Below the pieces are notes generated by a model that did no database searches, had not been told where the DNA came from, and was given only the letters and a program-made list of their open reading frames with translations. A program made the translations under genes and the position numbers. Positions 4,858 to 32,356 of a stretch of DNA of 64,000 nt are shown in pieces (within the stretch, counting starts at the first letter, position 1; each line of letters opens with the position of its first letter). The stretch is taken from assembly GCF_003240585.1 (NCBI RefSeq), contig NZ_PCDP01000019.1, positions 113,536-177,535 on the forward strand, written 5' to 3'. This DNA comes from Arminella tubonensis. GTDB taxonomy: Bacteria; Pseudomonadota; Alphaproteobacteria; Rhizobiales; Rhizobiaceae.

Positions 4858-7206
4858 ATGACTTTATCTATCCGCAATATTCTGGTTGGAATATGCCTTC
4901 TTCTGAGTGCGGCAATCTGCGTGCTCACTGCATCATCCGCTATGGAGGCTTACAATAAAGAGCGGGTCTTCAGCGACGTATCGAAGCTTACCGCTCTCGA
5001 TCGAGCGCTCTTCCAGACGCTTGCGACCTTTCGCAACGAGCGTGGCGACGGTTCGTCCGCTGCCAAAATGGAAACAGACGCCCTCACCGGGACTCTGGCT
5101 TCGCTGACAAAGGATCGCGGATTGGTGGACAACGCCATGGCCGAAGCCAAGGCGATTTACGCTGGCATCAATGACGACGCGATCAAGGCGCCGATCGCCG
5201 ACGTCATGAACACGTTCGACCAAGTGCTGTCATTCCGCTCAAAGCTTGATGGTGAGCTCACCAAAAAGCTGGCAGACCGTGATCCCGGCCTGCAGGACAA
5301 CACCCTAAACCTCGGACAGCAGCTGCTGACGGCGCTGGAAAACGGCTCGACAGCCACCGAAGCCCGGATTCGCGAGAGCGATCCGTCGATGACGGCAATG
5401 ATCCAGATCCGCTCGCTGGCATGGTCCACGCGGGCACTTGCAGGAGCAGCCAACCTCCAGCTCAACATCACGCTCGGCGCAGGCGCGACGATGACGGCCG
5501 AAGAGTTCCGCAGGATTCAGCTCAACGATTACACCGTGACCTTCGCCTGGAAACAGGTCGGCATCCTCGTCAACCATCCGGACACGCTTCAAATTGTGAA
5601 GGACGCCTACCGGGCGGCAGAGGCCGGCTATTTCGGCGGCGATTTTGCTCCGAAGCGCGCTGCACTTCTCGAAACATTCGCTGCCGGCAAGAAAGCGCCG
5701 ATGTCTCTCGACGCCTGGCGGCCAATGGGCAATGACGCCCTCCTCTTCATCACCAATACGGCTGCAGCTGCCGCAGATGGCATGGTCGCCGCTGCCGCTG
5801 CCAGACAGTCCCAGGCCTTCACCGATTTCGTTATCTATGCACTCACCTTCCTTGTCGCTGCTATCGTCAGCGTCGTCGGCATCTGCGTCATTGTCTTCCG
5901 CGTCACCAAGCCGATCGGCGTCATCACTCAATCCATGGCAGCCTTGGCGCACGGCGATCTAAAGATCGCGGTCGCCGGTGTGGATCGTCGCGACGAAATC
6001 GGCGAGATGGCGCGCTCGGTCGAGGTCTTCCAGCAGGCCGCGATCAGCAACAAGGCGCTCGAAGAGCAAGCGGCCGAGGCAAGGGTCTCCTCGGAGCGCG
6101 AACGCATCGACGTCCAGCGCCGCGCCGAAGCCGAAGCCGAAGAACGCCTGATGCAGGCCACCGGCGCGCTGGCCGCAGGACTGCGCCGTCTCGCAGCCGG
6201 TGACCTTGTCTGTGAAATTGACGTGGCTCTCGCGCCGCAGTTCGAGTCACTCCGCCACGACTTCAACCTATCGGTCAGCCAGCTTCGCGATGCCATACGT
6301 GGCGTCGGCCAGACTGCGTCGCTGGTCAATAGCGGCAGCTATGAGATCTCGCAGGCCTCCGACAATCTCTCCAAGCGGACTGAACAGCAGGCCGCTTCGC
6401 TCGAGGAAACCGCCGCCGCACTCGAGGAAGTCACCGCCAACGTCCAGTCGACCTCCAAGCGCGCCGGCGATGCACGCGATCTGGTGCGCGGTGCCCGGTC
6501 TCGTGCCGAGAACTCCAGCCAGGTCGTCAACAATGCGGTCAGCGCCATGGGCAAGATCGAGCACGCGTCCCGGCAGATCAGCCAGATCATCGGCGTCATT
6601 GACGAGATCGCCTTCCAGACCAACCTGCTCGCATTGAATGCCGGCGTCGAAGCCGCCCGCGCCGGTGACGCCGGCAAGGGGTTTGCGGTCGTCGCCCAGG
6701 AAGTGCGGGAGTTGGCGCAGCGCTCGGCCAATGCCGCCAAGGAAATCAAGAGCCTGATCGGCAATTCGGAAGTCGCCGTCAGCGAAGGCGTCCGCCTCGT
6801 CAACGACACCGGCGAAGGCCTATCCGCCATCGCCGAACTTGTGCAGCAGATCAACCAGCACATGGACGCTATCGCCACAGCTGCCCAGGAGCAGTCCATG
6901 GGTCTGTCCGAGATCAACAGCGCCGTCAACCATATGGACCAGGCGACACAGCAGAACGCGGCCATGGTCGAACAGATGAATGCAGCCGGCGCAGGGCTTG
7001 CGCAGGAAAGCAGCCGATTGGGTCAACTGCTCAGCTCCTTCCAGACCGGCAACGGCAGCGCACCGGCCGCGAGTAACCGTACCCCGGCTCCGTCCCGAAC
7101 CGTAACCCCCGCCCCGGTCCGGGCGTCAGCGTCGGTCTCGCGTCCCCCGGCCGCACGGGGCAATGCAGCGCTCAACAAGCTGCAGCAGGAATGGACCGAA
7201 TTCTGA
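4858..7206 (+). CDS. Methyl-accepting chemotaxis protein
   Basis: A 782-residue chemoreceptor. A first membrane helix (about residues 7-29) and a second (about 323-348) flank a periplasmic, mostly helical sensing region of about 290 residues. A HAMP domain follows (about 349-400), then a charged coiled coil and a second HAMP-like segment (about 434-480). The conserved hairpin tip that contacts CheA and CheW lies at about 580-630 ([20 protein letters not shown]). Glutamine/glutamate-rich helices on either side are the methylation regions. The C-terminus ends in EWTEF, matching the xWxxF tether that docks CheR and CheB. The ligand is unknown. It has no chemotaxis partners nearby, as is usual for scattered rhizobial receptors. 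Confidence 0.93.
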
Positions 7207-7484: not shown

Positions 7485-7697
7485 TTAGTTGAATATGATT
7501 TGTTTTCTGATCGGAGGTAACATCGCGGCGTCTAGTTCATATACAAGTGTACCAAGTGCGATATCCAGCTTGTTCCGCGCATCTTCTGCGCCGAGGTCAC
7601 CAGCAACCTCGCGTGCATAGGTGACGAGGCGGGCCAACGCCGCCAGTTGCTTGTCCCGCTCCTCTGAGGTAGTCGCAATGTCGACATCAGCTTTCAT
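7485..7697 (-). CDS. Small hypothetical protein downstream of tfuA
   Basis: A 70-residue helical, acidic protein. The ATG at 7697 has GGAG at a proper distance and is preferred over an in-frame ATG 18 nt upstream. It lies 114 bp downstream of the tfuA stop on the same strand, so it could be the last gene of that cluster, but no motif ties it to peptide modification. No family is recognised. Confidence 0.55.
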   Translation of the reverse strand: MKADVDIATTSEERDKQLAALARLVTYAREVAGDLGAEDARNKLDIALGTLVYELDAAMLPPIRKQIIFN

Positions 7698-7811
7698 CGT
7701 GCTACTCCATCCCAAATACCATCAAGGTCTTATGATAGTGGGACTTTTGGCAAAGTGCGCGTGACTTGAACGTGACGCATCTTTGAGACGAGCAAACCAT
7801 AAGGACTTCGC

Positions 7812-8528
7812 TCACAGGGAATTGGTGCCTAGAGCGCTCCACATGCTGGTAGCGTGGAATTCCCAAGTCAGCTGTACAGTGGAGCGTTCCGACGGTGCCG
7901 CAGCCAAGCGATCGAGAAGCAGACGAGCGTCGGATGCTTTGGCGTTGACGGTCGATGAGCGCAACATTTGGAGCAGATGGACCCGTTCGGTTGAGGGGGT
8001 CAGGTCTGCTTGTTCAACGATGCCGGCCCATGTGCGATCCTTATAGAAGATTCGCCCCGCAGCTTCAGCCAAAGCGGCGACCTCATGGGCCGAAAGCCTA
8101 TCCCGCGCCGAAAGCCAATCCAGGGTCGCCGTGACATTGACGATGGGAATTGTCAATGGAATCCAGTCAAGCTCGGGCGGTCCGTGCAAGAGAGCGACGT
8201 CCGCGTCGTCGAACAGGCGCCCGCTGACGTAGCCCTCGTAGATCTCTCCAACTCCCACCATTCCAAAGGCGGCACATTCGGCAGCACGAAGAGCGCCCAT
8301 ACTTGCTGCACCTAACACTTGAACGCCCATAGACAGAGCGAAGAGAATTTCCTTATGCCAGACCGGCGCGACCGACTCGAAATTGCCGTCGATCAGACCA
8401 ATAGCGCAAGCACCTGATTTCACAGCGGCCAGAATGTCTCCTTGTATCGCGGGTGGCCGAATCTCTATGTCGGCCCGAGCGACGGCTGCAGCGTCTGGCA
8501 AGCTTGGACCGACGAAGACGCGCTTCAT
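7812..8528 (-). CDS. tfuA: TfuA-domain protein, partner of YcaO
   Basis: A 238-residue TfuA-family protein. The N-terminal two thirds carries the family hallmarks in order: FVGPSL at residues 5-10, a PPA..GDI stretch, a GLIDGNF motif, VWHKEILFAL, and GAASMGALRAAECAAFGM, followed by an acidic DDADVALLHG stretch. TfuA proteins pair with YcaO enzymes. In thioviridamide-type pathways and in methyl-coenzyme M reductase thioglycine formation the pair makes backbone thioamides, and in trifolitoxin the role is less clear. Its ATG overlaps the ycaO stop (ATGA), so the two are translationally coupled. With the precursor candidate just upstream, it most likely helps modify that peptide. Direct sulfur chemistry is inferred from the family, not seen here. 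Confidence 0.92.
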   Translation of the reverse strand: MKRVFVGPSLPDAAAVARADIEIRPPAIQGDILAAVKSGACAIGLIDGNFESVAPVWHKEILFALSMGVQVLGAASMGALRAAECAAFGMVGVGEIYEGYVSGRLFDDADVALLHGPPELDWIPLTIPIVNVTATLDWLSARDRLSAHEVAALAEAAGRIFYKDRTWAGIVEQADLTPSTERVHLLQMLRSSTVNAKASDARLLLDRLAAAPSERSTVQLTWEFHATSMWSALGTNSL

Positions 8529-9709
8529 GCAAGCTCCAGGCTGCGCGTCAAAGCGCGTTGCCCGAACCGATGCTTCCGCAGGCCATCCGGATTTTCGAGA
8601 TCGGGGACCAACATCTTCACGACGGAGAACGGGACATCGTCGCCAGCGAGAGGAACAGAAATTGCCGACCGGATTCCACAGGCAGCAAGTCTATCGCTTA
8701 CAAAAGCCAGCAGTTGCAGCAAGCCTTGGAATCTTGGACCGGTCCGCAACTGAGCATCATGTGCGGAGGCCTTGAACAGGGCGAGCGTCTCAGGTGGAAG
8801 CGGCCGTGTGTACGTCTGATGAAAGACATCATCGCGTGCGCCGCTAATATAGGTTAGCCTGGATTGTGCGGCTTCTGTGATGGCCCTTATCACCGCCCGA
8901 CACGGGTCTGGATGCGTACCGTGTCCGACCGTGGCATCGTGAAACCGCGGTGTCGGGCGCTCGAGGATATCGCGCGCCGCAAGGAATGTCGAATAGCTCG
9001 GAATGCCAATATCGCTGGTAATGTCGAAGAGCTTCAATTGAAGCCCCGCCTCCTCGATCTTCGTTGTCAAATTGTCGATGACGGGATCCGAGAATGACCA
9101 GGCATTGACGCATAGCCGCTCTCTGATGCCCGCCGGCGCAACGCTCCATAAGACATAGGCATCACGCTCGATACGCTCGAGCAATCCGTGGAGAATTGCC
9201 TCAGTTTCGGTATTGCCGGAGGCGAGCCCATCCGATGACTGCCAATAGCGGCTGTTTAAGCGCGTTCGGTCCAAGACGACCGCGTCAAATGGGACCCAGA
9301 CGGGCCTATTGTTGAGAATGTCAAAGCCTCTGACCCAGTCGAGGTTCACGTCGTCAGTGAGATCCTTTTTCCCACTGCCGAGAAGGCAGGCGAGCGTTTG
9401 TGAACGTTCGCCGGCGTCCGCAAGTTCACGTCGCGAAGACGATCGTCGGGCGATCGTCGACGAACACGCAAGCGAACGCTCCAACGCCTCCATGGCGGCG
9501 GAAACCTTGGCGTCAATGTCCGTGATACCCTTGCCTTGGTTGATCACGATCGAGCGGGCGTTCGGTGAAACCGCATTCCAAACAGGAATGCCGATCCGAT
9601 CCAGTCCGGTCAGACGGCCTAGGCGGGTGACGCCCGCCGGAGCAAGATAGGGCTCAATCCGCCGGAATGTCTCCTCGGCAGGACAGGCACGATCGGAATA
9701 GTCGTCCAC
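8525..9709 (-). CDS. ycaO: YcaO-domain peptide backbone-modifying enzyme
   Basis: A 394-residue YcaO protein. The three ATP and magnesium binding stretches can be seen: SAAMEALER (about residues 70-78), the E-rich helix EAILHGLLERIERDA (about 170-184), and EAAQSRL with the following SGARDD (about 279-294). YcaO enzymes phosphorylate a peptide amide so that a nucleophile can attack it. The C-terminus ends RSLELA and lacks the PxPxP tail of azoline-forming cyclodehydratases. Together with the coupled tfuA, this favours thioamide formation or another TfuA-dependent change. GTG at 9709 is the start, 13 bp after the precursor stop. The gene sits in the order regulator, precursor, ycaO, tfuA on one strand. 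Confidence 0.92.
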   Translation of the reverse strand: MDDYSDRACPAEETFRRIEPYLAPAGVTRLGRLTGLDRIGIPVWNAVSPNARSIVINQGKGITDIDAKVSAAMEALERSLACSSTIARRSSSRRELADAGERSQTLACLLGSGKKDLTDDVNLDWVRGFDILNNRPVWVPFDAVVLDRTRLNSRYWQSSDGLASGNTETEAILHGLLERIERDAYVLWSVAPAGIRERLCVNAWSFSDPVIDNLTTKIEEAGLQLKLFDITSDIGIPSYSTFLAARDILERPTPRFHDATVGHGTHPDPCRAVIRAITEAAQSRLTYISGARDDVFHQTYTRPLPPETLALFKASAHDAQLRTGPRFQGLLQLLAFVSDRLAACGIRSAISVPLAGDDVPFSVVKMLVPDLENPDGLRKHRFGQRALTRSLELA

Positions 9710-9722
9710 TGAACTCTACCGA

Positions 9723-9941
9723 TCAGCCGTCCATGAAACCGCCGGAAACGGATGCGGTCGACTGTGCTGTCACGGCGAGGTTCACACCTTTCGTGATGAC
9801 TACGCCGGAAGCCCGAAGTTGGTCGGCGGAAGCAAGCGCCCCCTTCGTTGGAGCAGGGATCTTCGCGATCGTGCCGGCGTCAAGATCGGCGAGATAAAGA
9901 CCATCTTCTCCAGCGACACCAATAACCAGAACCTTAGCCAT
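9723..9941 (-). CDS. Probable RiPP precursor peptide for the YcaO-TfuA pair
   Basis: A 72-residue protein starting MAKVLVIGVAGEDG, with GAGG upstream of the ATG. The first 40 residues look like an ordered, beta-rich leader. The C-terminal part is rich in Ala, Ser, Thr, Val and Gly and ends SVSGGFMDG, with no cysteine. It lies 45 bp downstream of the TPR regulator and 13 bp upstream of ycaO, the classic place for a substrate gene. It is not like trifolitoxin or thioviridamide precursors as far as I can recognise. The likely core is the last 10-25 residues (inference). No obvious GG-type cleavage site before a core is certain, although SGGF could be one. It could instead be a stand-alone modified protein rather than a secreted peptide. 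Confidence 0.7.
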   Translation of the reverse strand: MAKVLVIGVAGEDGLYLADLDAGTIAKIPAPTKGALASADQLRASGVVITKGVNLAVTAQSTASVSGGFMDG

Positions 9942-9986
9942 AATTAATACGTTCCTCTGTTTGCGATTTGCAGGGTGGCTGCCTTG

Positions 9987-11849
9987 CTAGCGAAAGCCCG
10001 CCTTCCGCAGCCCCTCGACATAATGTTTTTTCTGCCAGTCGTCCTTGAACGGCACGATGGCCATCCATTTCTCGAGGTCAAATCCTGGATGAACTTCAAA
10101 GGTCCGGGAGATGAATTGCTTGGCCTTTCGAGCGTTGCCCAGCATGCCCCAACTCGCCGCAGCCAAGCGATCTGCCGGTAGCTTATCTTTCATTTGATTA
10201 ATGTAGCCAAGCGCCTGCTCGTATTCGCCGAGCGAATAACTGGCTCCGGCCGCGGTCCAAAAATATTCGTCAGGCGCCAATGGATTGAGATCGAGTGCCA
10301 GTTTGATTTTCTCGAGACCCTCTCCGGGGCGGGACGCCTGCACGAGCGTATCGGCATGGCTGGCGATGACATTGGCATAGTTCGGGCTGAGACTTTCAGC
10401 CTGTTGCAGGAATTCGATACTTTCGTCGTATCGCCGCTGATAAAGCTTGACGACGCCAAGCTCCCGATAGCCTGCCGCCAAGGACGTATTGGCTGTAATC
10501 GCATCCTTTGCAAACCGCTCTGCCGTCGTCAGCAGTTCTCCGTCTCCGCGCGCGGTCAAAAGCCATTCGAAGAAAAAGCTGCGGGCGACGCCACTGAGGG
10601 CCGGTGCAAATTGTCCATCTGCTCGCAACGCTTCGCGAAAGTGTCTCCGAGCTCGCCGTACCTGTGGAAGATCGAGGCTGTTGAGTGTCTGCTGGCCGAG
10701 CAGGAAATTCCTGTAGGCAGCACCATTTTCTTCGAAAAAGATGCGTTGGAATTCGTTGCCGGTGATCTGGTCTGAAATAGCAGACGCGATCTTGACCGCG
10801 AGTTCTCGGCGTGAACCCGTCAGCGAGGCATCTGCAATATCGAAGCGTTCTGCCCAAATGATCTCGTCGCTTCCAAAGAAGATGAGCTGTGCAAACAATG
10901 AGCATCCGCTGCCTTCCTCCATGAGGCGCGTATCAAGAACATAGCTGATCGAGTAACGCTCGTATGTGAGCGGCTTGTCAGTTCGCTGACTGATCTGCGC
11001 AGCCGTGTAAGGTGCAAGGACGGAAACCGAGCGAAATGCACACAGTCCAATCGTTACGTCCTCGACCAACGCGGTCGCGTAGATAGCCGCAGGGTGCTTA
11101 GAGGCGGCCGGCGGCAACAACACGATTCGCGGCGACCGTTTGGTGACCTGCTCGATCGACGCTCCTGCCGCTTGGGGGGATAGTGTCGAAAGGGCTGCTG
11201 CGGGAACTCTTTTTGGACCGTCTGCTGCCATTCCGCTTTGGGTGACGCCAAGATCGCCATAGACTTTTGTGAGAGCCGTCCGGACGGCTTCATCGGCGGG
11301 ATACCGATCGAGAATCTTCAACGCAGCCGATTTGAAAGTCGTCATGTGGGCTGGCTCATCCAGATCACTCACCTTCAGCAAAGCGTGGCGCAATAACAAC
11401 AGGTGCTCTTCGCGCTGATGCTCGATCCAGTTCGTCAGACCCTCGCTCTCAAACGCAACCTCGACGAGGAAGTCGCTTTCCAACGTGCCTGCGACCTGAA
11501 GAAAATACTCGAGCGGTGCAATCTTGTCGGTTGGCAGCAGATTGTCCACATCGGAAGCATAACTGTTCGCCGAGACACTGATGGTGTCTCTGGAGAACTG
11601 TAAAATTGATATACCGAGTTCCGTCTGTTTCGCCAAAATACGAGCGACGGCTTTTCGCAGACTGGCGTAGGCTCTTGCCTGATCAACATCTCCCCAGAAC
11701 AAACGTGCGATCTCGGCTCGGGATTTCTGTTCCCAACGATTGGTGCGGGCATGGCAGAGAATTAGGAGCGCTTTATCCGGAAAGGCCACAGCCTGCCCCA
11801 GCTCATCGAAAAGCTTTAACTGTCCGAAAGTTACCAATTTATATGTCAT
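9987..11849 (-). CDS. SARP/BTAD-like regulator with TolB-like and TPR domains
   Basis: A 620-residue cytoplasmic regulator. The N-terminus is a winged-helix DNA-binding domain (about residues 1-100) followed by a bacterial transcriptional activator domain with the RLFWGDVDQARAYASLRKAV stretch. A central TolB/FlgO-like domain (about 235-345, RIVLLPPAASKHPA) is followed by several tetratricopeptide repeats up to the C-terminus. It is the first gene of the precursor-ycaO-tfuA group, only 45 bp ahead of the precursor, and probably activates that operon. TPR regulators of other families bind signal peptides, so it might sense the modified product (inference). The same TolB-TPR arrangement occurs in the adenylate cyclase at 14280-16163. 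Confidence 0.8.
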   Translation of the reverse strand: MTYKLVTFGQLKLFDELGQAVAFPDKALLILCHARTNRWEQKSRAEIARLFWGDVDQARAYASLRKAVARILAKQTELGISILQFSRDTISVSANSYASDVDNLLPTDKIAPLEYFLQVAGTLESDFLVEVAFESEGLTNWIEHQREEHLLLLRHALLKVSDLDEPAHMTTFKSAALKILDRYPADEAVRTALTKVYGDLGVTQSGMAADGPKRVPAAALSTLSPQAAGASIEQVTKRSPRIVLLPPAASKHPAAIYATALVEDVTIGLCAFRSVSVLAPYTAAQISQRTDKPLTYERYSISYVLDTRLMEEGSGCSLFAQLIFFGSDEIIWAERFDIADASLTGSRRELAVKIASAISDQITGNEFQRIFFEENGAAYRNFLLGQQTLNSLDLPQVRRARRHFREALRADGQFAPALSGVARSFFFEWLLTARGDGELLTTAERFAKDAITANTSLAAGYRELGVVKLYQRRYDESIEFLQQAESLSPNYANVIASHADTLVQASRPGEGLEKIKLALDLNPLAPDEYFWTAAGASYSLGEYEQALGYINQMKDKLPADRLAAASWGMLGNARKAKQFISRTFEVHPGFDLEKWMAIVPFKDDWQKKHYVEGLRKAGFR

Positions 11850-11995
11850 TAGCCATTCCGCCGGGAGCGCTTCCGAAAGGGAGCCGCCGTAATTGTACGT
11901 GCCGCGTCAATTCAAATACCGAACAAGTGTTTCACTCGTCAGTCACTCACATCATGAGAACAATTTTTTACCTCCGGATCGCTCACTAGCTAGGA

Positions 11996-12322
11996 TCAGC
12001 GCTCGAGAGCTTCTTCGTCCTCCAAAGGGCGGGACGACATCGGCACACGCAAGCAGTCTGGCTTTCCGATGCCATACATTGAGAACGGAGATGTAGAGTC
12101 TTGCGCGAAAAAGAAATCCGGCGAGACCCTCAACACCTTTTCAACTTTTTGAAGTTGAGTGACGCTTATTCGCTCGTTGCCGCTCTCATGATTCTCAACC
12201 TGGAGCGCCGTTATTCCGAGGGAATCGGCAAGCGTCTTTTGATCTATGCCGAGTTCTAAGCGTCGAGCTTTTATCCTTGATCCCACGAAGATGTCGATTG
12301 AATTGCGTTGGTCCGTGCCCAC
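11996..12322 (-). CDS. XRE-family (Cro/CI-type) transcriptional regulator
   Basis: A 108-residue protein with a helix-turn-helix of the Cro/CI type near the N-terminus (VGSRIKARRLELGIDQKTL, then ALQVENHESGNERIS). GTG at 12322 is chosen because GGAGG lies 5 nt ahead of it; a longer in-frame ATG at 12418 would add an unlikely 32-residue head. The C-terminal tail of about 40 residues has no known domain. It is 146 bp upstream of the BTAD regulator on the same strand and may control the YcaO-TfuA cluster. Target and ligand are unknown. Confidence 0.82.
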   Translation of the reverse strand: MGTDQRNSIDIFVGSRIKARRLELGIDQKTLADSLGITALQVENHESGNERISVTQLQKVEKVLRVSPDFFFAQDSTSPFSMYGIGKPDCLRVPMSSRPLEDEEALER

Positions 12323-12499
12323 GTTCGCCTCCGTGTCTCCCAAATCGCCGCGCCGATATCTTGCTTTAGTCACGATATCTATGCAATCGAAGAATGCCAA
12401 CGCTTGTCGATTTGCCATCGTTCTCGGGGAAGGCTAATCGCAATATCAGAGCTAGATTGATGGCTTGCACGTCAGCCTCCGGTGAGGGCCGTAGGTTAT

Positions 12500-19823: not shown

Positions 19824-21131
19824 CTAGCCTTTCTTGCCAACCGAAAAATAGCTGAACCCGTGCTTGCTGACCTCCGAAGCCGGATAAATGTTGCGCAGGT
19901 CAACAACGACAGGTTCGTTCATGCTGAGCTTCAGGCGTTTGAAGTCCAGCGCTCGGAACTCATCCCACTCGGTGACAATGACAACCGCGTCTGCATTCTC
20001 CGCGATCTCGTAGGGATCGCCACCATAAACCACAGCGCCTAGCATCTCCCTTGCTGCTTCCATGCCTTCCGGGTCATAGGCATGAACGATCGCACCACCG
20101 TCGAGCAAGGCTTGGATGACAGTGATAGACGGGGCATCCCGCATGTCATCCGTATTGGGTTTGAAGGTAAGGCCGAGGATCGCGACCTTCTTGCCCCGGA
20201 CGTTCCCGCCGCAAGCGGCGATAACCTTGCGCCCCATGGCGCGCTTGCGATTGTCGTTGATCGCGACTGTTGTCTCGATCAGTCGTAGGGGGCTGCCAAA
20301 ATCCTGCGCAGTCTTAACGAGCGCCAAAGTATCCTTGGGAAAGCACGATCCACCATAGCCAGGACCCGCGTGCAGAAACTTGTCGCCAATCCGCTTGTCC
20401 ATCCCGATGCCCTTGGCCACCTTTTGAACGTCTGCCCCAAGCTGCTCGCAAAGATCGGCGATTTCATTGATGAAGCTGATCTTCATCGCCAGAAACGCGT
20501 TGGCCGCGTATTTGATCAGCTCGGACGTGCGACGTTCGCAGAAGTAGAGCGGCGCTTCGTTGAGATAGAGGGGACGATAGACCTCGCGCATGACCTCGAT
20601 GGCGCGAGGTTCCTCGGTACCGATAACGATGCGGTCCGGGCGCTTGAAATCTGTGATCGCTGCACCCTCGCGCAGAAACTCCGGGTTGGAGACGACGGCG
20701 ATGTCCTTGCCGGGAAACTCCTCGCGGAAAATGCGCTCTATCTCATCACCCGTGCCAACGGGCACCGTCGACTTCGTGACCACCACGGTAAAGCCACTGA
20801 CGGCCTCAGCAATCTCGCGGGCAGCCGCGTAGACATAGCTCAGATCCGCGTGACCATCGCCGCGGCGGGATGGTGTGCCGACAGCAATGAATACAACATC
20901 CGCCGCGGCGACCGGGGCAGCGAGTTCCTTTGAAAAGCCGAGCCTGCCAGCGCCGCGATTCTGTCGGATGATCGCCTCCAGCCCGGGCTCGAAAATCGGC
21001 ACCTTGCCAGCTTCAAGTGCATTGATTTTTTCTTCGGACTTGTCGACACATGTTACGTCATGGCCGAAATCCGCCATGCACGCACCCGAGACGAGACCGA
21101 CATATCCCGAACCTACCATCACAATACGCAT
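19824..21131 (-). CDS. rkpK: UDP-glucose 6-dehydrogenase
   Basis: A 435-residue UDP-glucose/GDP-mannose dehydrogenase. The N-terminal NAD-binding fold starts MRIVMVGSGYVGLV, the central domain carries KYAANAFLAMKISFINEI, and the catalytic cysteine is C263 in GPGYGGSCFPKDT. The C-terminal UDP-binding domain includes GLTFKPNTDDMRDAPS. It oxidises UDP-glucose to UDP-glucuronate, giving a charged sugar donor for the polysaccharide. The family includes RkpK of Sinorhizobium. A long leader of about 330 bp upstream suggests its own promoter. Confidence 0.93.
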   Translation of the reverse strand: MRIVMVGSGYVGLVSGACMADFGHDVTCVDKSEEKINALEAGKVPIFEPGLEAIIRQNRGAGRLGFSKELAAPVAAADVVFIAVGTPSRRGDGHADLSYVYAAAREIAEAVSGFTVVVTKSTVPVGTGDEIERIFREEFPGKDIAVVSNPEFLREGAAITDFKRPDRIVIGTEEPRAIEVMREVYRPLYLNEAPLYFCERRTSELIKYAANAFLAMKISFINEIADLCEQLGADVQKVAKGIGMDKRIGDKFLHAGPGYGGSCFPKDTLALVKTAQDFGSPLRLIETTVAINDNRKRAMGRKVIAACGGNVRGKKVAILGLTFKPNTDDMRDAPSITVIQALLDGGAIVHAYDPEGMEAAREMLGAVVYGGDPYEIAENADAVVIVTEWDEFRALDFKRLKLSMNEPVVVDLRNIYPASEVSKHGFSYFSVGKKG

Positions 21132-21458
21132 GACGTTCTCTCTCCGAATTCAAATCGTTAAGTATATCTGACAATTGGGATAGATGCTGCATCGCAGCAA
21201 ATCAAGTCAAAACTGGATGATTTGAATAGCAATTCCGCTCATTTTGCATTGAATTTCGACCGATGCGCCGGCTATTCCACAAAACGCATTTCGCAATGCC
21301 AAATCCACCTCAAACGACAGCTCGCCAGTCTCAAATGGGGGCGTTTCGTTACAGTACAGCACGGGGATAAACGCGCATGAAATAGGTCACTTCCGACCAC
21401 GGTGCTGGCACGAATGTGGCAACGGCAGGCGCCCTAAGAACGTGCAAGCCTGATGGAA
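21132..21458. promoter_or_regulatory. Intergenic leader upstream of the UDP-glucose dehydrogenase gene
   Basis: No gene is supported. A short hairpin TGCTGC-ATC-GCAGCA lies at about 21186-21200, and the stretch near 21160-21260 is AT-rich, which suits a promoter. Confidence 0.4.
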
Positions 21459-22394
21459 TCAACGCCCGTGCACGACGGCGTATTCTGCATGCCGATGCCC
21501 GAGCAAAGCGCCAACCTTGCCTAGAACCCTTGCCCCGAGCCGTGCGCACTCGAAGCGCTTGGCTGGATGCCAAAAGAATAAAATGAATGTCGCGGCCACG
21601 ACGAGCACCGTGCCGCATATCCGAACTGTCTCACTGAAAAACCCGAAGCCGGGGGGATGATGCTTTAGATGGACAAGGGTATAGGTGTTGCCAATCCGGT
21701 AGGCACGCTTGAGCATCCAACTGGCCGAGCAGCGAGAAATGGGCATATCCTCCATTACCATCGCATCGTCGGCCCAGGCGAATTTCGTTCCTGCCAGCTT
21801 AAGACCGAGAAGCATGTCCGTATCTTCACCGCCAAGCAGGCCAAAGCCGGGATCAAACCAAGGTGCGGAGCGTCTTCGCAGAAGTGACGCCGTGAATAGA
21901 ATGTTACTGGTTGCGTCGACCCAATCGATCGGTCCTGTTGCGATCTTGGAGAAGTCCGGCAAGTTGGCCTCCGCCAAATGCCGCGGCACGGGCTTTTGGA
22001 AAATACGCCTTACCGGTCCGCCGATGACGTCTGCACCAGTGATCTGTTGGACATTCAAAAGCGCTTCCAACCAGTCTTCGACCGGCCATTCATCATCATC
22101 GATCATCGCGATGAATTGAGCGTGCGGGTACGTTAAAGCCTCGGCAATTAGTGCGTTTCGTGTTTGGGCAATGCCACGCTCTTCCACCGAAATGGCCACA
22201 ATCGGAACGCTGAAACCGGTGGCCATCAATTCTTCGCAGATGGCGATACCTTCTCTGCCGTCAGAATCATTGTCAGCAACAATGACTTGAAAAGGCCTAT
22301 CTGTTGCCAAGACTGATATTGCCTGAAGGCACCGTGCGAGACCGGCAGGACGCCGGAATGTCGGTATGCAGATCACGACATTGTAGCCTGACAT
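21459..22394 (-). CDS. Glycosyltransferase family 2
   Basis: A 311-residue GT-A fold enzyme. It starts MSGYNVVICIPTFRRPAGLA, and has the nucleotide-binding VIVADNDSDGREG and the metal-binding IAMIDDDEWP. One or two hydrophobic segments near the C-terminus (GTVLVVAATFILFFW) suggest membrane association. It resembles ExoM-type transferases that add a sugar to a lipid-linked unit. Donor and linkage are unknown. The ATG at 22394 is preferred; the frame upstream reaches into the co-polymerase gene and is cysteine-rich and unlikely. Confidence 0.85.
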   Translation of the reverse strand: MSGYNVVICIPTFRRPAGLARCLQAISVLATDRPFQVIVADNDSDGREGIAICEELMATGFSVPIVAISVEERGIAQTRNALIAEALTYPHAQFIAMIDDDEWPVEDWLEALLNVQQITGADVIGGPVRRIFQKPVPRHLAEANLPDFSKIATGPIDWVDATSNILFTASLLRRRSAPWFDPGFGLLGGEDTDMLLGLKLAGTKFAWADDAMVMEDMPISRCSASWMLKRAYRIGNTYTLVHLKHHPPGFGFFSETVRICGTVLVVAATFILFFWHPAKRFECARLGARVLGKVGALLGHRHAEYAVVHGR

Positions 22395-22564
22395 TTTGAC
22401 CCTATTCGATATCCGCGCCGGAAATGCGAAGATTTTTTGCGCAGCGCTCAAAACGCAACGATCATCTGAACGGATAATTCGTCCGGCACGCACCTGTCGC
22501 GCAGATCTCATGCACATTGAACTCTGACAGGACCCCATCGAGCAGACAGCAACGCTCCCACCCA

Positions 22565-24823
22565 TCACCCTTCATGATAGTAGGCAGAATAGCGCGAGTG
22601 GTAATACTCATCCGAGCCGAAATCGCGATAGAGCTTCATCTTCTTGGCATCGACCTTGTTGAGAATAACGCCGGCGCATTTGTCATAGAGGCGCGCTTCG
22701 TTGAGAAGCGTGCTGCGAACGACCTTGCGCGACGTGCGCCCCCATTCCACGACCATAAGCACCGTATCGAGCAGGGGGCTGATCGCCCGCGCGTCCACAA
22801 CTGGACCAAGCGGCGGCAGATCAAGCACGATGTAGTCGAAATTCGATTTCGCCTCATCGAGCAGCCTGATCATGGCCGGTGAGACCAAGAGCTCTGGCGA
22901 GTGCGGGACGCGCCGCTTCACCACCGCAGGAAGAAAAGTAAGGTTAGTCTTAGGATCAACGAAGAACGTCTCCTTCATTGGCCTTTGTCCTATCAGGACC
23001 TCCAGGAGACCATCCTCGGCGCTCAGTCCAATTCCGCGGGTTGCGCCAGGATTGCGAAGGTCAGCGTCGATCAGCAATGTTTTGGCGCCCTGCATCGCAA
23101 GCAGTTCAGCAAAATTGACTGCGATCGTCGACTTCCCCTCGCCTGGCAAGGTCGACACCACGCCAATTATCTTGCTGCCCTTCTCGCTGCCCTGAAGATC
23201 GACGGCGATCTTGGCACTGCGCATGGTTTCGGCGAAGGCGGAATGTGGATGCTCCACCACGTATCGAAGGAGATCGTTGTTTGGCCTAACGACCCGGAGA
23301 TCACCGGCTAGCGCCGGCTCATTGATCGGCTTTATCTTTTCGACAAGAAGAGCCGCGCCGAGATATTCCAGATTAAGATTTTGCCTTACCTGCTCGCCAG
23401 TACGGAAGAACCGATCGCGGAATTCTCGAAACGCGCCGAGACCGCCACCCAAGGCAATTCCGAGAAAGGTAGCAATCGCCACGACAAGTGGCTTCTTCGG
23501 CTTGCTCGGCTTGATCGGCGGGGTAGCCTTTGTGATTATCCTTGCTTCCGTGATTGGAAACGACTGTTGCTGTGAAGCCTCTTGAAAGCGGGCAAGGAAC
23601 GTCTGCAACAGGTTCTTATAGCTATCCGCGGCACGCTCAAGCTCCCGGAGCTGAACCTGTGTTTCCCCCGCAACGGCAGATACGCCTGTTGCCTGGGACA
23701 CGTTTAATCGCAATGCGTCTTCTTTTGCTTTTGAGACTTGCAATTCGCTATTGTAGCTTTCAGCAATGCGACCAAGTTCTTCGAACATCTGTCGTTCATA
23801 TTCGGCCATCTCTGCGCGCAAACGGACCGCCTGGATGTGATCAGGACCCAGGCGATTGGAGATCTCCGCCTCGGTCTTTGAGGCCGCCAGGTACTTCTGC
23901 CGCAAATCGTTCGAAACGGAACTTCCAAGGACGTCGGTGACGATGGCATCGGTTCGTTTTGCGTCAATAATGGCCTTGATGCGGTCGTATTTTGCGCGGG
24001 CCTGTGCGGTCTCAGACTGCGCCACGATCAACGCACTATTGAGCTCAGACAGTTGCTGATCACTGATGAGGCTGCCGTCCTTTGCCGACATCAGACCATG
24101 GGTCGTCCGGAATTTTTGAACCTCGAGATCTGATTCCGCGGCCTTCTGCTTGAGTTCGTCGATGCGTTCCTGAAGCCAATCACTCGCCCGCCGTGTCGCC
24201 TCATACCTCGAGTTGAGTTTGTCGACGATATAGGCGTCGGCATAAGCGTCAGCAATCTGGGCGGAAAGCTCGGCATTGGGCGACGTGAAGTCGATATTCA
24301 TGACATAGGATCGGCCGACACGCTGGACGTCCATGTTGTTCAGGAGCACTTCCTTGGCGATCGTCTGAGCGTCCTGCTGCTCACCACCTACCCCAAACCA
24401 AGCCTTGACGTTCACTAGCGACCGAATGTAGCCAAGCAGGGAATTTTCCGATGCCATGAAAATGGCATTGTTGGTCAAATCCAGTTTCTTGATGACGTCA
24501 AGCGCGATGGTATCCGACTTCACAATCTCAAGCTGGCTAAGGACAGTCGACTCGTCATCAACCGTCACGCCGGCGTCCGAAAGCTGGGTAACAATGCCGC
24601 TATTGCCACGCTCGATCAGCACGCTGGTCTCGGCTGTGAATTTCGGCGACGCCGTGAGCGCAAAGGCTACACCCATGACCATAAAAATGACGGCAAAACA
24701 GGCGACGAGACGCCACTGACGGCGTGCGATCGCAAGCAACCGATCAAAATCTAGCGCTTCTATCGGGCTGTTGCTCTCCCACATGTTGTCGCTGCGAGAG
24801 GAGATCTTATCTGGAGACAGCAT
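22565..24823 (-). CDS. exoP: ExoP/Wzc-type polysaccharide co-polymerase with tyrosine kinase domain
   Basis: A 752-residue inner membrane protein. The Wzz domain spans two membrane helices (about residues 38-60 and 445-465) enclosing a long periplasmic coiled-coil part. A PxxP-type TPPIKPSKPKKP precedes the second helix. The cytoplasmic BY-kinase has Walker A TLPGEGKST (about 558-566), Walker A' LLIDADLR (about 583-590) and Walker B YIVLDLPPL (about 664-672). The tail ends in a tyrosine cluster (DEYYHSRYSAYYHEG) for autophosphorylation. It sets chain length and links polymerisation to export. ATG at 24823 is used; a TTG at 24850 or a later ATG are alternatives. Confidence 0.92.
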   Translation of the reverse strand: MLSPDKISSRSDNMWESNSPIEALDFDRLLAIARRQWRLVACFAVIFMVMGVAFALTASPKFTAETSVLIERGNSGIVTQLSDAGVTVDDESTVLSQLEIVKSDTIALDVIKKLDLTNNAIFMASENSLLGYIRSLVNVKAWFGVGGEQQDAQTIAKEVLLNNMDVQRVGRSYVMNIDFTSPNAELSAQIADAYADAYIVDKLNSRYEATRRASDWLQERIDELKQKAAESDLEVQKFRTTHGLMSAKDGSLISDQQLSELNSALIVAQSETAQARAKYDRIKAIIDAKRTDAIVTDVLGSSVSNDLRQKYLAASKTEAEISNRLGPDHIQAVRLRAEMAEYERQMFEELGRIAESYNSELQVSKAKEDALRLNVSQATGVSAVAGETQVQLRELERAADSYKNLLQTFLARFQEASQQQSFPITEARIITKATPPIKPSKPKKPLVVAIATFLGIALGGGLGAFREFRDRFFRTGEQVRQNLNLEYLGAALLVEKIKPINEPALAGDLRVVRPNNDLLRYVVEHPHSAFAETMRSAKIAVDLQGSEKGSKIIGVVSTLPGEGKSTIAVNFAELLAMQGAKTLLIDADLRNPGATRGIGLSAEDGLLEVLIGQRPMKETFFVDPKTNLTFLPAVVKRRVPHSPELLVSPAMIRLLDEAKSNFDYIVLDLPPLGPVVDARAISPLLDTVLMVVEWGRTSRKVVRSTLLNEARLYDKCAGVILNKVDAKKMKLYRDFGSDEYYHSRYSAYYHEG

Positions 24824-24850
24824 TCGGTACTCACGTTTTGAAGGGTTCAA

Positions 24851-25231
24851 TTTGACTTCAATTTCGAACAGCCTGACCTTTGACCAGGTCTAACTGCCAA
24901 GTTCATTACGTTCGCCGTTGGCTGCGAACGCCTGTTTGACTTCCGCAAGCACACACCCTCCAATGTCTGCCGCATGTCCCCTGACCCCTCTCATCGCCGC
25001 TGCCGCGGTTTACTCGTGCCCGGGTACTGATCTTCACCTCAACCGGCAAGGAAACGACCATGTCTCGCCTCCTGGCCACGCTCACAGCAACGCCGCTCCA
25101 TCTGAACCAGCTCAACACCTATCCAGGTGCTTTTCCAAAACAGATCGACTGACCCGAGGAGCCCAACTGACAAGATGGTCATCCTCCGCCGTCTCGTTCC
25201 GCAACGCCTCACGCCCGCACGCCATCCGAGT
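24851..25231. other. Intergenic stretch between the co-polymerase and exporter genes
   Basis: No gene is supported; plus-strand frames here overlap the antisense of the exporter gene. A promoter for the co-polymerase gene may lie at the low-coordinate end. Confidence 0.4.
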
Positions 25232-26407
25232 TTATTTCACTGCATTGTTCGCCTGGGATGCCGACGAAGTCACCGTGCTTGCAATATCGAGAAACTTCAC
25301 AAGTTCAACAGAAGACGCGTTCGAGACATAAAGGACGTCTTTATCCTGCATTGCAAACTTCTGCGCGGTGAACAGGCCTGCCGGATCTCGCAGATTGGCG
25401 CGGAACACGACAGGAATGACCTGCCCCTTAAAGCTGGAAACGTTGACACCCATTCTTTGCAATGACTGTCGCCCGACCGTTCGATAGACGAAAACCTGCG
25501 CCGGGTTCGCCTTGCTGTCCAGCAAGCCACCGGCCTTTGCCAACGCATCGCTGAGCGTCAAATTGGTGTCGGCGAAGTCAAACTGGCCATTGAGCCCAGA
25601 CGCGCCGAAGACTGTGTAAGTGCGGCGTACGTGATCCGCGATGACGGTATCGCCCGGCGACAGGAAGATGTTCTCGGCCGGGTTATCTAGAATAGCGCGA
25701 TAGCCGACGGTTGCAGTCTTATTTTGACGCTGCAGCGTGATATTCGTCTCCAGGCCAGCTGCAGACAGACCGCCAGCCTGGGAGATCGCATCAAGGACAC
25801 GCTCGCCTGCAGCCGTGAGTTCAAATTTCGCAGGATTTTTCACGTCGCCGAGCACGGCAATCTGGCTCGATCTGCTCGTCACCGTCGTTACCACGACTTG
25901 CGGTTCGATCGCGCGATTCTTAAGCTTTTCGACGATGTCGCTCTCGACCTGTTCCTTGGTGCGGCCGACAGCCCTTATCTGCCCTGCATAGGGGATACTT
26001 ATGGTGCCGCCACGATCGATTGTCTGATTGGGAAGGGTAACATAATTGCCCGGGCGGCTGCCCGCATCCGTTGGGATAAACAGGCCGCCTGATTGCGCTT
26101 CGAAAATCGCGACCTGAACGACGTCACCATATCCGAGTGGAACATCATGCGGGCTACCGCGGCGGCCACCAAAACTGCTCCTCAAGGAGACTGACCCCGG
26201 CGCTTCGAAATACCCCAAAGTATTCTCATTGAGATCGAGCAGCGCGTAGTCGATGCCGACTTTGCGATCTTCCTTTGCTACTGTAATAGCAGCTTTGCTT
26301 TCGACCACCTGACCATCCGGGCCGGAGCGTGGAAGTGATGTGCAACCGGAAAGCAACAGCAAGAACGCAACAAGAAATGTATTTTTGCCAGCTATGCTCG
26401 TAATCAT
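25232..26407 (-). CDS. Outer membrane polysaccharide export lipoprotein (Wza/ExoF type)
   Basis: A 391-residue exported lipoprotein. The signal peptide ends at the lipobox LLLSGC (Cys near residue 22). A polysaccharide export domain follows (about 85-185, YGDVVQVAIFEAQ and GTISIPYAGQIRAVGRT), then two SLBB-type domains (about 190-290 and 300-370). It should form the outer membrane channel that works with the ExoP-type protein. The VLGDVKNPAKFELTAAGERV stretch is typical. It reads toward the co-polymerase gene, about 410 bp upstream of it. Confidence 0.9.
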   Translation of the reverse strand: MITSIAGKNTFLVAFLLLLSGCTSLPRSGPDGQVVESKAAITVAKEDRKVGIDYALLDLNENTLGYFEAPGSVSLRSSFGGRRGSPHDVPLGYGDVVQVAIFEAQSGGLFIPTDAGSRPGNYVTLPNQTIDRGGTISIPYAGQIRAVGRTKEQVESDIVEKLKNRAIEPQVVVTTVTSRSSQIAVLGDVKNPAKFELTAAGERVLDAISQAGGLSAAGLETNITLQRQNKTATVGYRAILDNPAENIFLSPGDTVIADHVRRTYTVFGASGLNGQFDFADTNLTLSDALAKAGGLLDSKANPAQVFVYRTVGRQSLQRMGVNVSSFKGQVIPVVFRANLRDPAGLFTAQKFAMQDKDVLYVSNASSVELVKFLDIASTVTSSASQANNAVK

Positions 26408-27104
26408 ATGGAGTCCACTTAATTCATTTACAACGCCTTTACCCGATCAATTTCGCAAATACCAGAGGGCCAAGAGGTCTTTGCGGCATGTAGTAAATTA
26501 CCGGGCATACATGTGGCAATGAAACAACATAAGCGCATGAAAGCGCTGAATTTGTTCACACGATTCTTGAAGAGGGACGTTTTCGATTGATAAGAGACTG
26601 TTACAATGTATTTCGATTGCCACCCCCACAGACCTTCCGGTCAGTATTCTGTGATTAGAAGGGTCATGATGGTTTTTTACTCATTCTTAGCCATCATTGC
26701 CTATTTAATAGACAATAAATTCTCCAAGGACGGGAAGAATGGAACCGCGCTACTATTGCGATCACAGGGCGAAATTCTGGATGTGCAAGGATTGGAAGTT
26801 GGCGGAGGTATCGCTCCTCTGTCGCCTTATCGTCTGATGCCCAGGGTGGAGCGATTGGCGCCAGCGTCGTCATCGCCGGGCGGGAAGATACTGCGTCTGA
26901 GCGGCTCGACCGCGGGAGCGACATCGGCGAGCGGGCGCATGTTCAGGGTATTGGCAAATCGTATGAACTCCCTCTGAATCGACATCGGGAAATTAAATGG
27001 GGGCACGAGCCGATAGCGCGGCTCCCCAAGTGACCGCCGGTTGTCACTTGGCCAATCAGGCGATCTACACATCATGATACGCAAGGGCAGCAAGGTGCAA
27101 TTAA
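26408..27104. promoter_or_regulatory. Intergenic region between divergent exporter and acyltransferase genes
   Basis: Nearly 700 bp between divergent genes. It is AT-rich at 26580-26720. A plus-strand frame at 26606-26977 is open for 123 codons, with a hydrophobic start (MVFYSFLAIIAYLI), but it is not recognised and may be chance. Promoters of both flanking genes should be here. Confidence 0.4.
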
Positions 27105-29174
27105 ATGTCGGATGAACTGGCTGCGGCCGGCGCGGAATTAACCGAAAATCGTGCCGTCGAGCGCACGCCACCCCTTCACAAGAAAAATGAAGTGTCGAGG
27201 CACGCGCCTCCTTTGGCGGAAAGCGCTTATCGACCTGACATCGATGGCCTACGTGCCATCGCGGTCTCGATCGTGTTGATTTATCATGCAGGCATCAGCA
27301 CCTTCAGAGGCGGCTTCATCGGTGTCGACGTTTTCTTCGTAATCTCAGGTTTCCTGATCACAAGACTGCTTCGCGCGGACCTGGAGCGAGGCACTTTTTC
27401 CATCTCCCGCTTTTACGAACGGCGTATCCGCCGGATTTTTCCGGCGCTTATCGCCGTGGTCGCGGTGACGCTCACCGTTGCGCCATTCACGCTATTTCCA
27501 GTCGAGCTGAGAACGACGGCACTCACCGCAATTGCCGCTCTCAGTTCATTTTCAAATCTCTATCTTTTGAATTCCGCCGGCTATTTTGCAGCCGACGTCA
27601 CCTCCCAGCCCTTGATCCACACCTGGTCTCTGGGTGTGGAGGAGCAGTTTTACCTCGCCTTCCCTCTGCTGCTCGCAGTCATTGGCGCATCGCGCGTGCG
27701 CGCGGCACGGTGGACGATCGTCGTCCTGGCGCTCGCTAGCCTCCTTGGTGGCATTCTGTTGACGGCAGCGGATCGAGATATCGCCTTTTACTTTCCGCTC
27801 ACCCGCGCATGGGAATTGTTGCTTGGCTCCCTCTTGGCCTATAGCGTCGTTCCACAGATGCCACGCCTCCTCCGGGAGTTTGGCATGTTTGCCGCGCTCC
27901 TGCTGCTCCTGGTAAGCAGCGTCAAATTTCACGCCGGCCTTGCCTTTCCTGGCTATTTTGCCGTCATTCCATGCGTTTCAACCCTGGCGCTGATCGGTAT
28001 CGGCGGACAAGGTCCAACGACCGTAAAAGGCCTGCTTTCGTCGTCGCCCTTCGTTTGGGTTGGCAAGATTTCATATTCTCTCTATCTCTGGCACTGGCCG
28101 ATCTTTGTGTATTATCAGTTGATCCGCGGAACGGCGCTTTCGGCGCCGGAAGCATTGGCGCTCATCCTCCTTAGCGTCCTTGCGGCATATCTGTCTTGGC
28201 GCTACGTCGAACAGCCTTTCCGCGAGCGCAAGATTTTGGCAACGCGGGCCGAGCTATTGCGATGCGCGGGCGTCGCCTATCTGATCTTGTGCGTGGCGGG
28301 CATTGGCCTGTCATATGGTGCTGCTCGCCTGCAAATTCCCAATGGTGATGGCAATCACTTCGCAAGCTATCTCGACTATGATGATACGAGTGTCTACCGC
28401 CGCGGCGTGTGCTTTCTTATTGGTCACATCAACCATTTATCGGATTATGATCGCGACACGTGCCTGAAGCCTTCCCTGGATAAGCCGAATATATTGCTCA
28501 TTGGCGACAGTCATGCTGCAGATTTGTGGAGCGGGCTGACCGCAGTGATGCCGCAAAGCAATGTGATGCAAGCCACATCCAGCGGATGCAAGCCGGTGAT
28601 TTCATCCAAGGGCGAGCGTGGCTGCACGGATCTGATGCAGATGGTCTTTAGCGACTTTCTCAAGAAGCATCGTCCGGGCATCCTCATCCTGTCAGCTCGC
28701 TGGATAGAAACCGACATTCCGGATGTCGTGCGTTCGCTCGAGGCGCTTCGTGGCCACGTTGATCGGATCGTGGTCTTCGGACCCATCGTCGAATACCACA
28801 AATCCCTGGCGCGATTGCTTGGCCAGGTCGCCAGCGGCAGGAACGCCAGCTTGCTTGTGACAGCCAGAAATACCGAACAAATGAAGACCGATAGCGAAAT
28901 GGCCGCAGCGGTAGAAGCCGCGGGCGGCGTCTATGTCTCCACATACTCCCTGCTTTGCCCTCCAGACGGCACGGCTTGCGCGACGCAGGAGAACGGCATT
29001 CCTTTGCAATGGGACTACGGCCATCTGACTGCAGCTGGATCGGCCTTTGTCGCAATGAAGGCCCAAATGACCGGGGCGTTTGATGTTCCTGGAAAATTCC
29101 AACTCCTGCTGGCCCAAATTCGGGGGCACTTCAACTCCAACCCATCCCGTGCCTCGCGTCGGAGACCTTTGTGA
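27105..29174 (+). CDS. OafA-like acyltransferase 3 with C-terminal SGNH domain
   Basis: A 689-residue membrane enzyme. After a polar N-terminus, the acyltransferase-3 domain begins RPDIDGLRAIAVSIVLIYHA and spans about ten helices (residues 45-400), with the signatures VDVFFVISGF and HTWSLGVEEQFYL. The soluble C-terminal part is an SGNH/GDSL hydrolase-like domain with GDSHAAD (near residue 467) and a late WDYGHLTAAGS (near 635) that supplies Asp and His. Such fusions O-acetylate surface polysaccharides. It is the only plus-strand gene in the core of the locus and is convergent with another acyltransferase. Confidence 0.92.
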   Translation: MSDELAAAGAELTENRAVERTPPLHKKNEVSRHAPPLAESAYRPDIDGLRAIAVSIVLIYHAGISTFRGGFIGVDVFFVISGFLITRLLRADLERGTFSISRFYERRIRRIFPALIAVVAVTLTVAPFTLFPVELRTTALTAIAALSSFSNLYLLNSAGYFAADVTSQPLIHTWSLGVEEQFYLAFPLLLAVIGASRVRAARWTIVVLALASLLGGILLTAADRDIAFYFPLTRAWELLLGSLLAYSVVPQMPRLLREFGMFAALLLLLVSSVKFHAGLAFPGYFAVIPCVSTLALIGIGGQGPTTVKGLLSSSPFVWVGKISYSLYLWHWPIFVYYQLIRGTALSAPEALALILLSVLAAYLSWRYVEQPFRERKILATRAELLRCAGVAYLILCVAGIGLSYGAARLQIPNGDGNHFASYLDYDDTSVYRRGVCFLIGHINHLSDYDRDTCLKPSLDKPNILLIGDSHAADLWSGLTAVMPQSNVMQATSSGCKPVISSKGERGCTDLMQMVFSDFLKKHRPGILILSARWIETDIPDVVRSLEALRGHVDRIVVFGPIVEYHKSLARLLGQVASGRNASLLVTARNTEQMKTDSEMAAAVEAAGGVYVSTYSLLCPPDGTACATQENGIPLQWDYGHLTAAGSAFVAMKAQMTGAFDVPGKFQLLLAQIRGHFNSNPSRASRRRPL

Positions 29175-29182
29175 GGAAAATA

Positions 29183-30298: not shown

Positions 30299-30309
30299 TG
30301 AACACGCTC

Positions 30310-31422: not shown

Positions 31423-32356
31423 ATTTGCGCCCCCAGGTCTTTAGGAATAGTAGCCACTTATCGGTAATGTTTCGATACTGCCGATCCGGCAGAACAATCT
31501 GTAGAAATACGATCCCAGCCAATCGGGGGGAATAGGCACCGTGAAGAACAGCGGCCAGGTAGAGCATCATTGCCTGCCACGCGTTCTTTTGAGCCATGCT
31601 CTTTGCAAAATGCCAGCCTCTGTAACCATAGTATGCACGCACTGGTATTTGAGGGCGAAGGTCTTCAAGCCAGCGTAAATCACCGATCGGCGTACGGCCG
31701 GTAGAGAGCCGGTCATGTTCGACGTCGTCTGCCCAAACGACTGTCGGGCTTTCTGCCATTTCAAAGCGGCAACCCGCCAATTGCAAACGAATGGCAAAGT
31801 CCGTGTCATCACCGAATATTGCATCCTCCCGGTATTTGACGCGTTTCGCGGTTTCGCTTCGCAAAGCAAGCCCGCTCGTTTGCACAAACCCCCGATCACA
31901 AATCAGGTAGATTGCCATATCTTCATCCGAGCGGATCGCACGCGGCGGTTTGACGAATGCGCGGCCACTGCCACGGCGAACGATAACCGGGGCATAAGCT
32001 GCTACATCATCTGATTTTTCCAAAAGAACCTTCACCGTTTCGAGATGGTGCGGAAGGAACAGGTCATCAGAATCGAGAAATGCGATGTAGCGACTGCTGG
32101 CTAGGTCAATTCCGGCATTACGCGCCGAGCTTGCGCCCGCGTTGGATTGTCGGAAGAGCCGAATTCGCTGATCTTGAACACTCAGTATCGAGCTGGCGAC
32201 ATCGTCAGTAGAACCATCATCGATGATCAGTATCTCGAAGTCTTGCAATGACTGATCAAGGACCGATTTAATCGCATTAAGGACGAGATCCGCCCTATTG
32301 TATACCGGTATGACAACAGAAAAGATTGGACTGTTAGAAAGCATTTTATTCAGCAT
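31409..32356 (-). CDS. Glycosyltransferase family 2 (second of a pair)
   Basis: A 315-residue GT-A enzyme. Motifs include FSVVIPVYNRADLVLNAI at residues 12-29, EILIIDDGSTDD, the donor-site ARNAGIDLASSRYIAFLDSDD with DSDD as metal-binding motif, and a WADDVEHDRL stretch late in the domain. It is homologous to the next gene upstream (32400-33308), and the two look like a tandem duplication that has diverged. It should extend the lipid-linked repeat unit. Confidence 0.9.
   Translation of the reverse strand: MLNKMLSNSPIFSVVIPVYNRADLVLNAIKSVLDQSLQDFEILIIDDGSTDDVASSILSVQDQRIRLFRQSNAGASSARNAGIDLASSRYIAFLDSDDLFLPHHLETVKVLLEKSDDVAAYAPVIVRRGSGRAFVKPPRAIRSDEDMAIYLICDRGFVQTSGLALRSETAKRVKYREDAIFGDDTDFAIRLQLAGCRFEMAESPTVVWADDVEHDRLSTGRTPIGDLRWLEDLRPQIPVRAYYGYRGWHFAKSMAQKNAWQAMMLYLAAVLHGAYSPRLAGIVFLQIVLPDRQYRNITDKWLLFLKTWGRKFEAA

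Follow-up and report, generated by a model that had tools for sequence, protein, structure and literature searches.

The window analysed here, a 64,000-nucleotide stretch of the Arminella tubonensis contig NZ_PCDP01000019.1, carries a cassette of six genes on its minus strand, encoding an XRE-type regulator, a TPR regulator, a 72-residue protein, YcaO, TfuA, and a 70-residue protein (all coordinates are window positions). The 72-residue protein is very probably the precursor of a ribosomally synthesized and post-translationally modified peptide (RiPP). The peptide is probably thioamidated, with YcaO and TfuA predicted to exchange a backbone oxygen for sulfur at a glycine of the core. The gene belongs to a conserved precursor family for YcaO-TfuA that spans several genera; the pairing with these enzymes and the repetition of the cores are shown by the comparisons below. 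The cassette contains the following features:

11996..12418, minus strand: XRE-type regulator, 140 residues (HTH_3 of Pfam, 5e-9).
9987..11849, minus strand: regulator with a winged helix-turn-helix/BTAD-like part and TPRs, 620 residues (TPR_2 of Pfam, 2.3e-6).
9723..9941, minus strand: predicted precursor gene, 72 residues (homologues in Rhizobiaceae; purifying selection).
9762..9941, minus strand: putative leader (head), residues 1-60 (predicted beta-beta-beta-alpha fold; alignment conservation).
9726..9746, minus strand: predicted core SGGFMDG, residues 66-72 (lower predicted local distance difference test score, pLDDT, of the tail; conservation of glycine 68; repeats in Shinella).
8525..9709, minus strand: ycaO, 394 residues, predicted ATP-dependent backbone thioamidation enzyme (PF02624, 3.4e-62).
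7812..8528, minus strand: tfuA, 238 residues, partner of YcaO (PF07812, 2.1e-40; PDB 6xp8, 5.6e-31).
7485..7697, minus strand: conserved small protein, 70 residues (kept across loci; alignment of relatives).

Spacings of 146, 45, and 13 bp separate the XRE gene, the TPR regulator, the precursor, and ycaO, in that order, and ycaO and tfuA overlap by 4 bp. The coordinates of the open reading frames (ORFs) bear out the five genes, order, strand, and spacing given in an earlier note on this DNA. The span it gave holds for the five genes that it named but not for the end of the XRE gene, as position 12322 is a GTG inside the frame 11996-12418; the sixth gene (7485-7697) is not named there. The 72-residue protein matched no family in Pfam or NCBIfam, and the 70-residue protein of the window matched none in Pfam.

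The identical gene order returns in dozens of genomes, and the arrangement is therefore beyond chance. Three samples of loci were compared: 50 Rhizobiaceae loci including the window, 23 order-sample loci (22 from other families and one from the genus of the window), and 80 named loci, from 85 matched. A 24th order-sample locus, L139, was dropped, its match being weak and the rest of the cassette absent there. The samples overlap: for 11 of the 80 named loci, the middle 300 bases are the same as in one of the 72 loci of the other samples. The regulator gene stands upstream of the first precursor gene at every locus (50/50, 23/23, and 80/80) and is steadier than ycaO, which is found at 46, 21, and 61 loci, respectively. 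The corresponding numbers are 43, 21, and 62 for tfuA, 43/50, 13/23, and 59/80 for the XRE gene, and 18/50, 11/23, and 52/80 for the 70-residue gene. At L040 and L076, tfuA lies on the opposite side of the regulator, and one of the two misses in the order sample is a contig end (L127).

Across genomes, the precursor and YcaO occur together. A single-sequence search finds a precursor homologue in 45 of 297 Rhizobiaceae genomes, and YcaO at E<=1e-70 is present in 47 of the 297, including all 45 with the precursor. The remaining two (G063 and G266) have a divergent precursor next to ycaO, recovered by a search with a head profile (L181 and L180). The reading of the precursor as a widespread protein unrelated to ycaO was rejected, as the precursor genomes examined all hold a related YcaO. 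In the order sample the precursor is present in 31 of 397 genomes, 22 of them from families other than that of the window, and in the class sample in one of 385, which is the genome of the window itself. Precursor matches were also obtained in 57 plasmid records from eight genera, all of which we take to belong to the Rhizobiaceae; the best, both 92% identical, are on Rhizobium rhizogenes pC5.7c and pColt5.8a. A survey of TfuA found 111 loci in 86 of the 297 Rhizobiaceae genomes. The precursor of the single-sequence search lies beside 43 of these loci, and four of the other 68 have a divergent precursor, so that many Rhizobiaceae TfuA loci are of other types.

The precursor combines a conserved head with a tail that is repeated in relatives. 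Residues 1-60 are conserved across the aligned relatives, and the AlphaFold2 model (mean pLDDT 82.3) places strands at residues 4-8, 15-19, and 24-28 and a helix at 34-44; the pLDDT of the tail is lower, at 68 and 55 for the last blocks. Glycine 68 is kept in at least 90% of 36 aligned sequences and is the predicted thioamide site. The window precursor has a single core copy, which is placed at SGGFMDG because Shinella precursors carry the unit SGGFMD two or three times. In many relatives the head is retained and the tail stands in tandem copies, variable in number and up to eight, with repeats such as GGYM (three times), FSGK (four), GLHE (three), GGFF (four), and GLFE (six). A second core type consists of RSDAASHHYFPNRG-like units in five to eight copies. 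Among 75 distinct precursors read from coordinates, a 4-mer occurs at least three times in 11 (expected 0.025, with a maximum of 1 over 200 shuffles) and at least twice in 21 (expected 8.1); the counts exclude three rows that were false or partial (L086:10034, L088:9210, and L137:7039).

Purifying selection on the precursor gene is shown by its substitution rates. The nonsynonymous (dN) and synonymous (dS) rates between the window precursor and its 92% identical relative are 0.042 and 0.326, respectively, with a dN/dS of 0.13, and eight other precursor pairs give 0.05-0.26. These ratios and the synteny speak against a chance ORF, and that reading was rejected. As the earlier note had said, the 72-residue sequence contains no cysteine. 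Its proposal that this protein is the substrate of YcaO and TfuA gains support from the co-occurrence, from the conserved head and repeated tails, and from the purifying selection.

The identities of YcaO and TfuA are unambiguous from their family matches. The best NCBIfam model for YcaO is TIGR03266, which describes thioamidation of the McrA glycine, at 219 bits against a cut-off of 365, and TfuA reaches 169 bits with the McrA-glycine model NF033432, under its cut-off of 235. The closest PDB structures are MJ1094 (6pe3) for YcaO and 6xp8 for TfuA; the available text of PMC5589413 lists the methanogen source of MJ1094 as having thioglycine without TfuA. In the proposed pathway, the predicted folded head would act as the leader recognised by YcaO and TfuA. 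YcaO would spend ATP and TfuA would help to deliver sulfide, following the proposals for the thiovarsolin and McrA pathways, and Gly68 would become thioglycine. General cell proteases would then release a short peptide; this is proposed since the flanks show no recurrent dedicated protease. The operon would be controlled by the XRE and TPR regulators, and the latter probably binds the head of the precursor or the product.

Several observations weigh against a thioamidated product of this family. No ycaO lies within 5 kb at 19 of the 80 named loci. The refuting condition set in the earlier note, homologues that widely lack ycaO and tfuA as neighbours, thus had a mixed outcome: those 19 loci belong to 18 genomes, and a related YcaO is encoded elsewhere in all 18 (at 48-57% identity in 16). 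In the other two the nearest YcaO is just 43% identical; this search covered YcaO alone. The YcaO threshold of E<=1e-70 was picked after other YcaOs had been seen, and in G174 and G102 the YcaO next to a divergent precursor falls short of it (L186 and L187). The genomes are related, so the counts do not represent independent events. Structure searches gave no fold match for the predicted head. Seven of the 75 precursors fit neither core motif, both motifs having been written after the sequences were seen, and the second precursor in the genome of the window ends in SGQFVG, where the acidic residue is missing.

The TPR regulator is the most constant neighbour of the precursor. The earlier note had described it as a BTAD-TolB-TPR protein; the TPR part of this label is upheld by the Pfam match, BTAD was detected in 6 of 26 aligned members (the window protein counted among the 26) but not in the window protein, and no TolB model matched in the regulator. 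The predicted structure (pLDDT 87.2) has TPR superhelices as its best fold matches, and the periplasmic domain of CadC is matched at E 3.4e-6. Partial correlations were computed over 47 thinned loci with 110 random columns per protein. Leader distances follow the middle (r = 0.51) and TPR part (0.44) of the regulator more than its N-terminal DNA-binding part (0.18), and the middle, TPR, and N-terminal runs give 0.17, 0.17, and 0.30 for YcaO and 0.03, 0.09, and 0.12 for TfuA. A first calculation with 59 loci gave 0.49 for the regulator and about 0 for both YcaO and TfuA; the greater length of the regulator made that comparison unfair, and it was replaced by the 47-locus run. Co-diversification with the precursor head is thus stronger for the sensory half of the regulator than for the DNA-binding half, a hint that the sensory half may read the precursor.

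These data also bear on the reading in which the 72-residue protein partners the TPR regulator, as either a co-regulator or an anti-regulator, and modification by YcaO and TfuA merely tunes it. The invariant position of the regulator, beyond the constancy of ycaO, and the closer tracking of its sensory parts than of YcaO or TfuA favour this idea, which we consider unlikely but the best of the alternatives. Against it, a related YcaO is present in 45/45 and 18/18 precursor genomes tested, and the core repeats point to a product. In addition, pC5.7c carries a second precursor (L089 15272-15619) that lacks its own regulator immediately upstream, and a few regulator genes are short or broken-looking (L078, L080, and L122). 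The correlation itself is indirect, covers 47 loci, and for the N-terminal part falls below that of YcaO.

Less probable still is a stable folded protein that stays uncut, its tail thioglycine serving a function of its own as in methyl-coenzyme M reductase. The predicted fold of the head, the purifying selection, and the McrA-glycine models as best models for both enzymes would suit such a protein, and so would the flanking genes. For the flanks, ORFs of at least 110 residues around 73 loci were clustered, the top 14 clusters were inspected, and 10 were named by Pfam from one example each. The named clusters include importer-type ATP-binding cassette (ABC) parts, an AraC regulator, a sugar kinase, solute-binding proteins, a transglycosylase, a Cys/Met pyridoxal phosphate enzyme, an SH3 protein, and an XRE regulator; one cluster had no family. 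The two commonest are ABC importer parts, near 24 and 12 of the 73 loci at a median distance of about 3.7 kb. Neither a protease nor an exporter is among the 10 named clusters, and a transporter may lie beyond this screen. The statement in the earlier note that the cassette lacks both agrees with these flanks, within the limit of the 10 named clusters, of which the commonest are importer-type ABC parts. The uncut protein is disfavoured by the scores of YcaO and TfuA, both under the cut-offs of those models, and by the tandem tails of variable copy number, a pattern typical of cores that are released and difficult to reconcile with one structural site.

YcaO enzymes are also known for azole and macroamidine chemistry. 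The formation of such groups in the core in place of a thioamide (an amidine-containing RiPP is the subject of the available text of PMC8442711) is highly improbable here in view of the TfuA partner, the window core without cysteine, and the failure of any E1-like or dehydrogenase family to match in the cassette in Pfam and NCBIfam scans.

Thioamidation of a dedicated precursor is thus the preferred reading, and in several genomes its genes are split between loci. In G138, G045, and G257, the precursor locus is without tfuA and a lone tfuA with an xre gene lies elsewhere in the genome (L155, L156, and L161). G029 has a regulator-precursor pair without ycaO and, elsewhere, xre, ycaO, tfuA, and the 70-residue gene (L183); at L183 5121-5303, a short ORF upstream of ycaO resembles a decayed precursor head, and the intact pair of this genome is at L052. 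An orphan pair and a complete cassette share one genome in G270, G009, and G003, and likewise in Rhizobium johnstonii 3841 (L233 and L263), where the tails are SGHYDG in the orphan pair and SGHVDG in the cassette. Such orphan pairs suggest that several peptides may share a single enzyme pair acting in trans. A tentative extension, which we hold to be possible but doubtful, is a Gram-negative circuit that senses a thioamidated peptide. A TPR regulator matched to its own precursor would read the folded head or the product inside the cell, and YcaO and TfuA, at times encoded elsewhere and shared by several pairs, would set the signal; orphan pairs such as that of strain 3841 would add further channels that depend on the same central enzymes.

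Two classes of regulator invite comparison. The likeness to CadC/SARP-like regulators lies in the BTAD of some members and the CadC fold match; the regulators described here differ in being tied to a peptide gene. RRNPP-type peptide-sensing regulators are helix-turn-helix and TPR proteins with the cognate peptide gene directly downstream. The present regulators may belong with them, given the constant adjacency to the precursor gene and the co-diversification, but their N-terminus is of the winged-helix type.

Among the known thioamide systems, the thioamitides (thioviridamide group) form a thioether ring with a C-terminal cysteine, whereas the window precursor has no cysteine. The thiovarsolins are the closest working model, with a precursor, YcaO, and TfuA and with repeated cores, which are seen here in relatives. 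According to the available text of PMC6511847, varA, varY, and varT are enough to make thiovarsolin B, the precursors of that family vary from non-repeating forms to forms with five repeats, and a specific protease is absent from the gene cluster; like the window precursor, one relative has a single copy. The core there is APR or GPR, in contrast to the SGGFMD or RSDAASH types here, and the window tail SGGFMDG does not fit APR/GPR. In addition, the heme oxygenase VarO is not seen in the window cassette, and the thiovarsolins were found in Actinobacteria, without mention of a TPR regulator pairing in that text. In Methanosarcina acetivorans, the McrA thioglycine requires ycaO and tfuA (available text of PMC5589413). 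That system provides the closest named enzyme models and a glycine target, which is predicted here; it differs in that both scores fall under the cut-offs and in that a large enzyme is modified there, against the product of a dedicated small gene here. More than 500 Rhizobium YcaO-TfuA clusters were counted in bulk by antiSMASH in 2021, and the window-type cassette is probably among them; in the available text of that paper (PMC8120280), neither the precursor described here nor its repeated cores appear, and split loci and a pairing with the TPR regulator are likewise absent. The earlier note overstated its case in proposing a new class, since YcaO-TfuA RiPPs, including these Rhizobium clusters, are already a known kind. 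No published description of this precursor family was found in a literature search, with preprints and subscription journals outside its range.

Further copies and other precursor-like types were seen beside these loci. The genome of the window holds a second copy with a regulator, a precursor (54% identical), and ycaO (57%), and with tfuA shifted upstream; a gene resembling a periplasmic sulfonate-type binding protein, named from sequence reading, lies behind its ycaO (L002 2944-3957). Directly behind the window-type cluster of R. rhizogenes pC5.7c stands a second YcaO-TfuA cluster (L089 15272-17603), whose precursor of 115 residues has about three units. An unrelated type of about 45 residues, ending in NIVHAVRFR or NLTHALKFR-like sequences, occurs beside TPR regulators and YcaO-TfuA and lies between the regulator and ycaO at L185, L188, L191, L196, L200, and L201. 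Proteins of about 140 residues with a IGKKGSGVLFVRT-like start, located between a TPR gene and ycaO-tfuA, form a third type (L174, L176, L179, L184, and L159).

Elsewhere in the window, a methyl-accepting chemotaxis receptor (4858-7206) adjoins the cassette; a related ORF cluster flanks 6 of the 73 loci, the window included, perhaps by chance. An apparent exopolysaccharide cluster at 19824-38354 comprises a UDP-glucose dehydrogenase family member, a glycosyltransferase, a Wzz/AAA chain-length protein, an export protein, an acyltransferase, a GH10 hydrolase, and an O-antigen ligase.

The proposed layout of this precursor, in which a head predicted to fold is followed by between one and eight cores and matched by a regulator, is to our knowledge known from neither the thioamitides nor the thiovarsolins. 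Known thioamidated RiPPs have potent activities, as stated in the available text of PMC8120280. With a complete cassette and an orphan pair in one strain, R. johnstonii 3841 makes the question of in-trans modification directly testable. If the reading is true, small thioamidated peptides would form a widespread and unexplored family in rhizobia.

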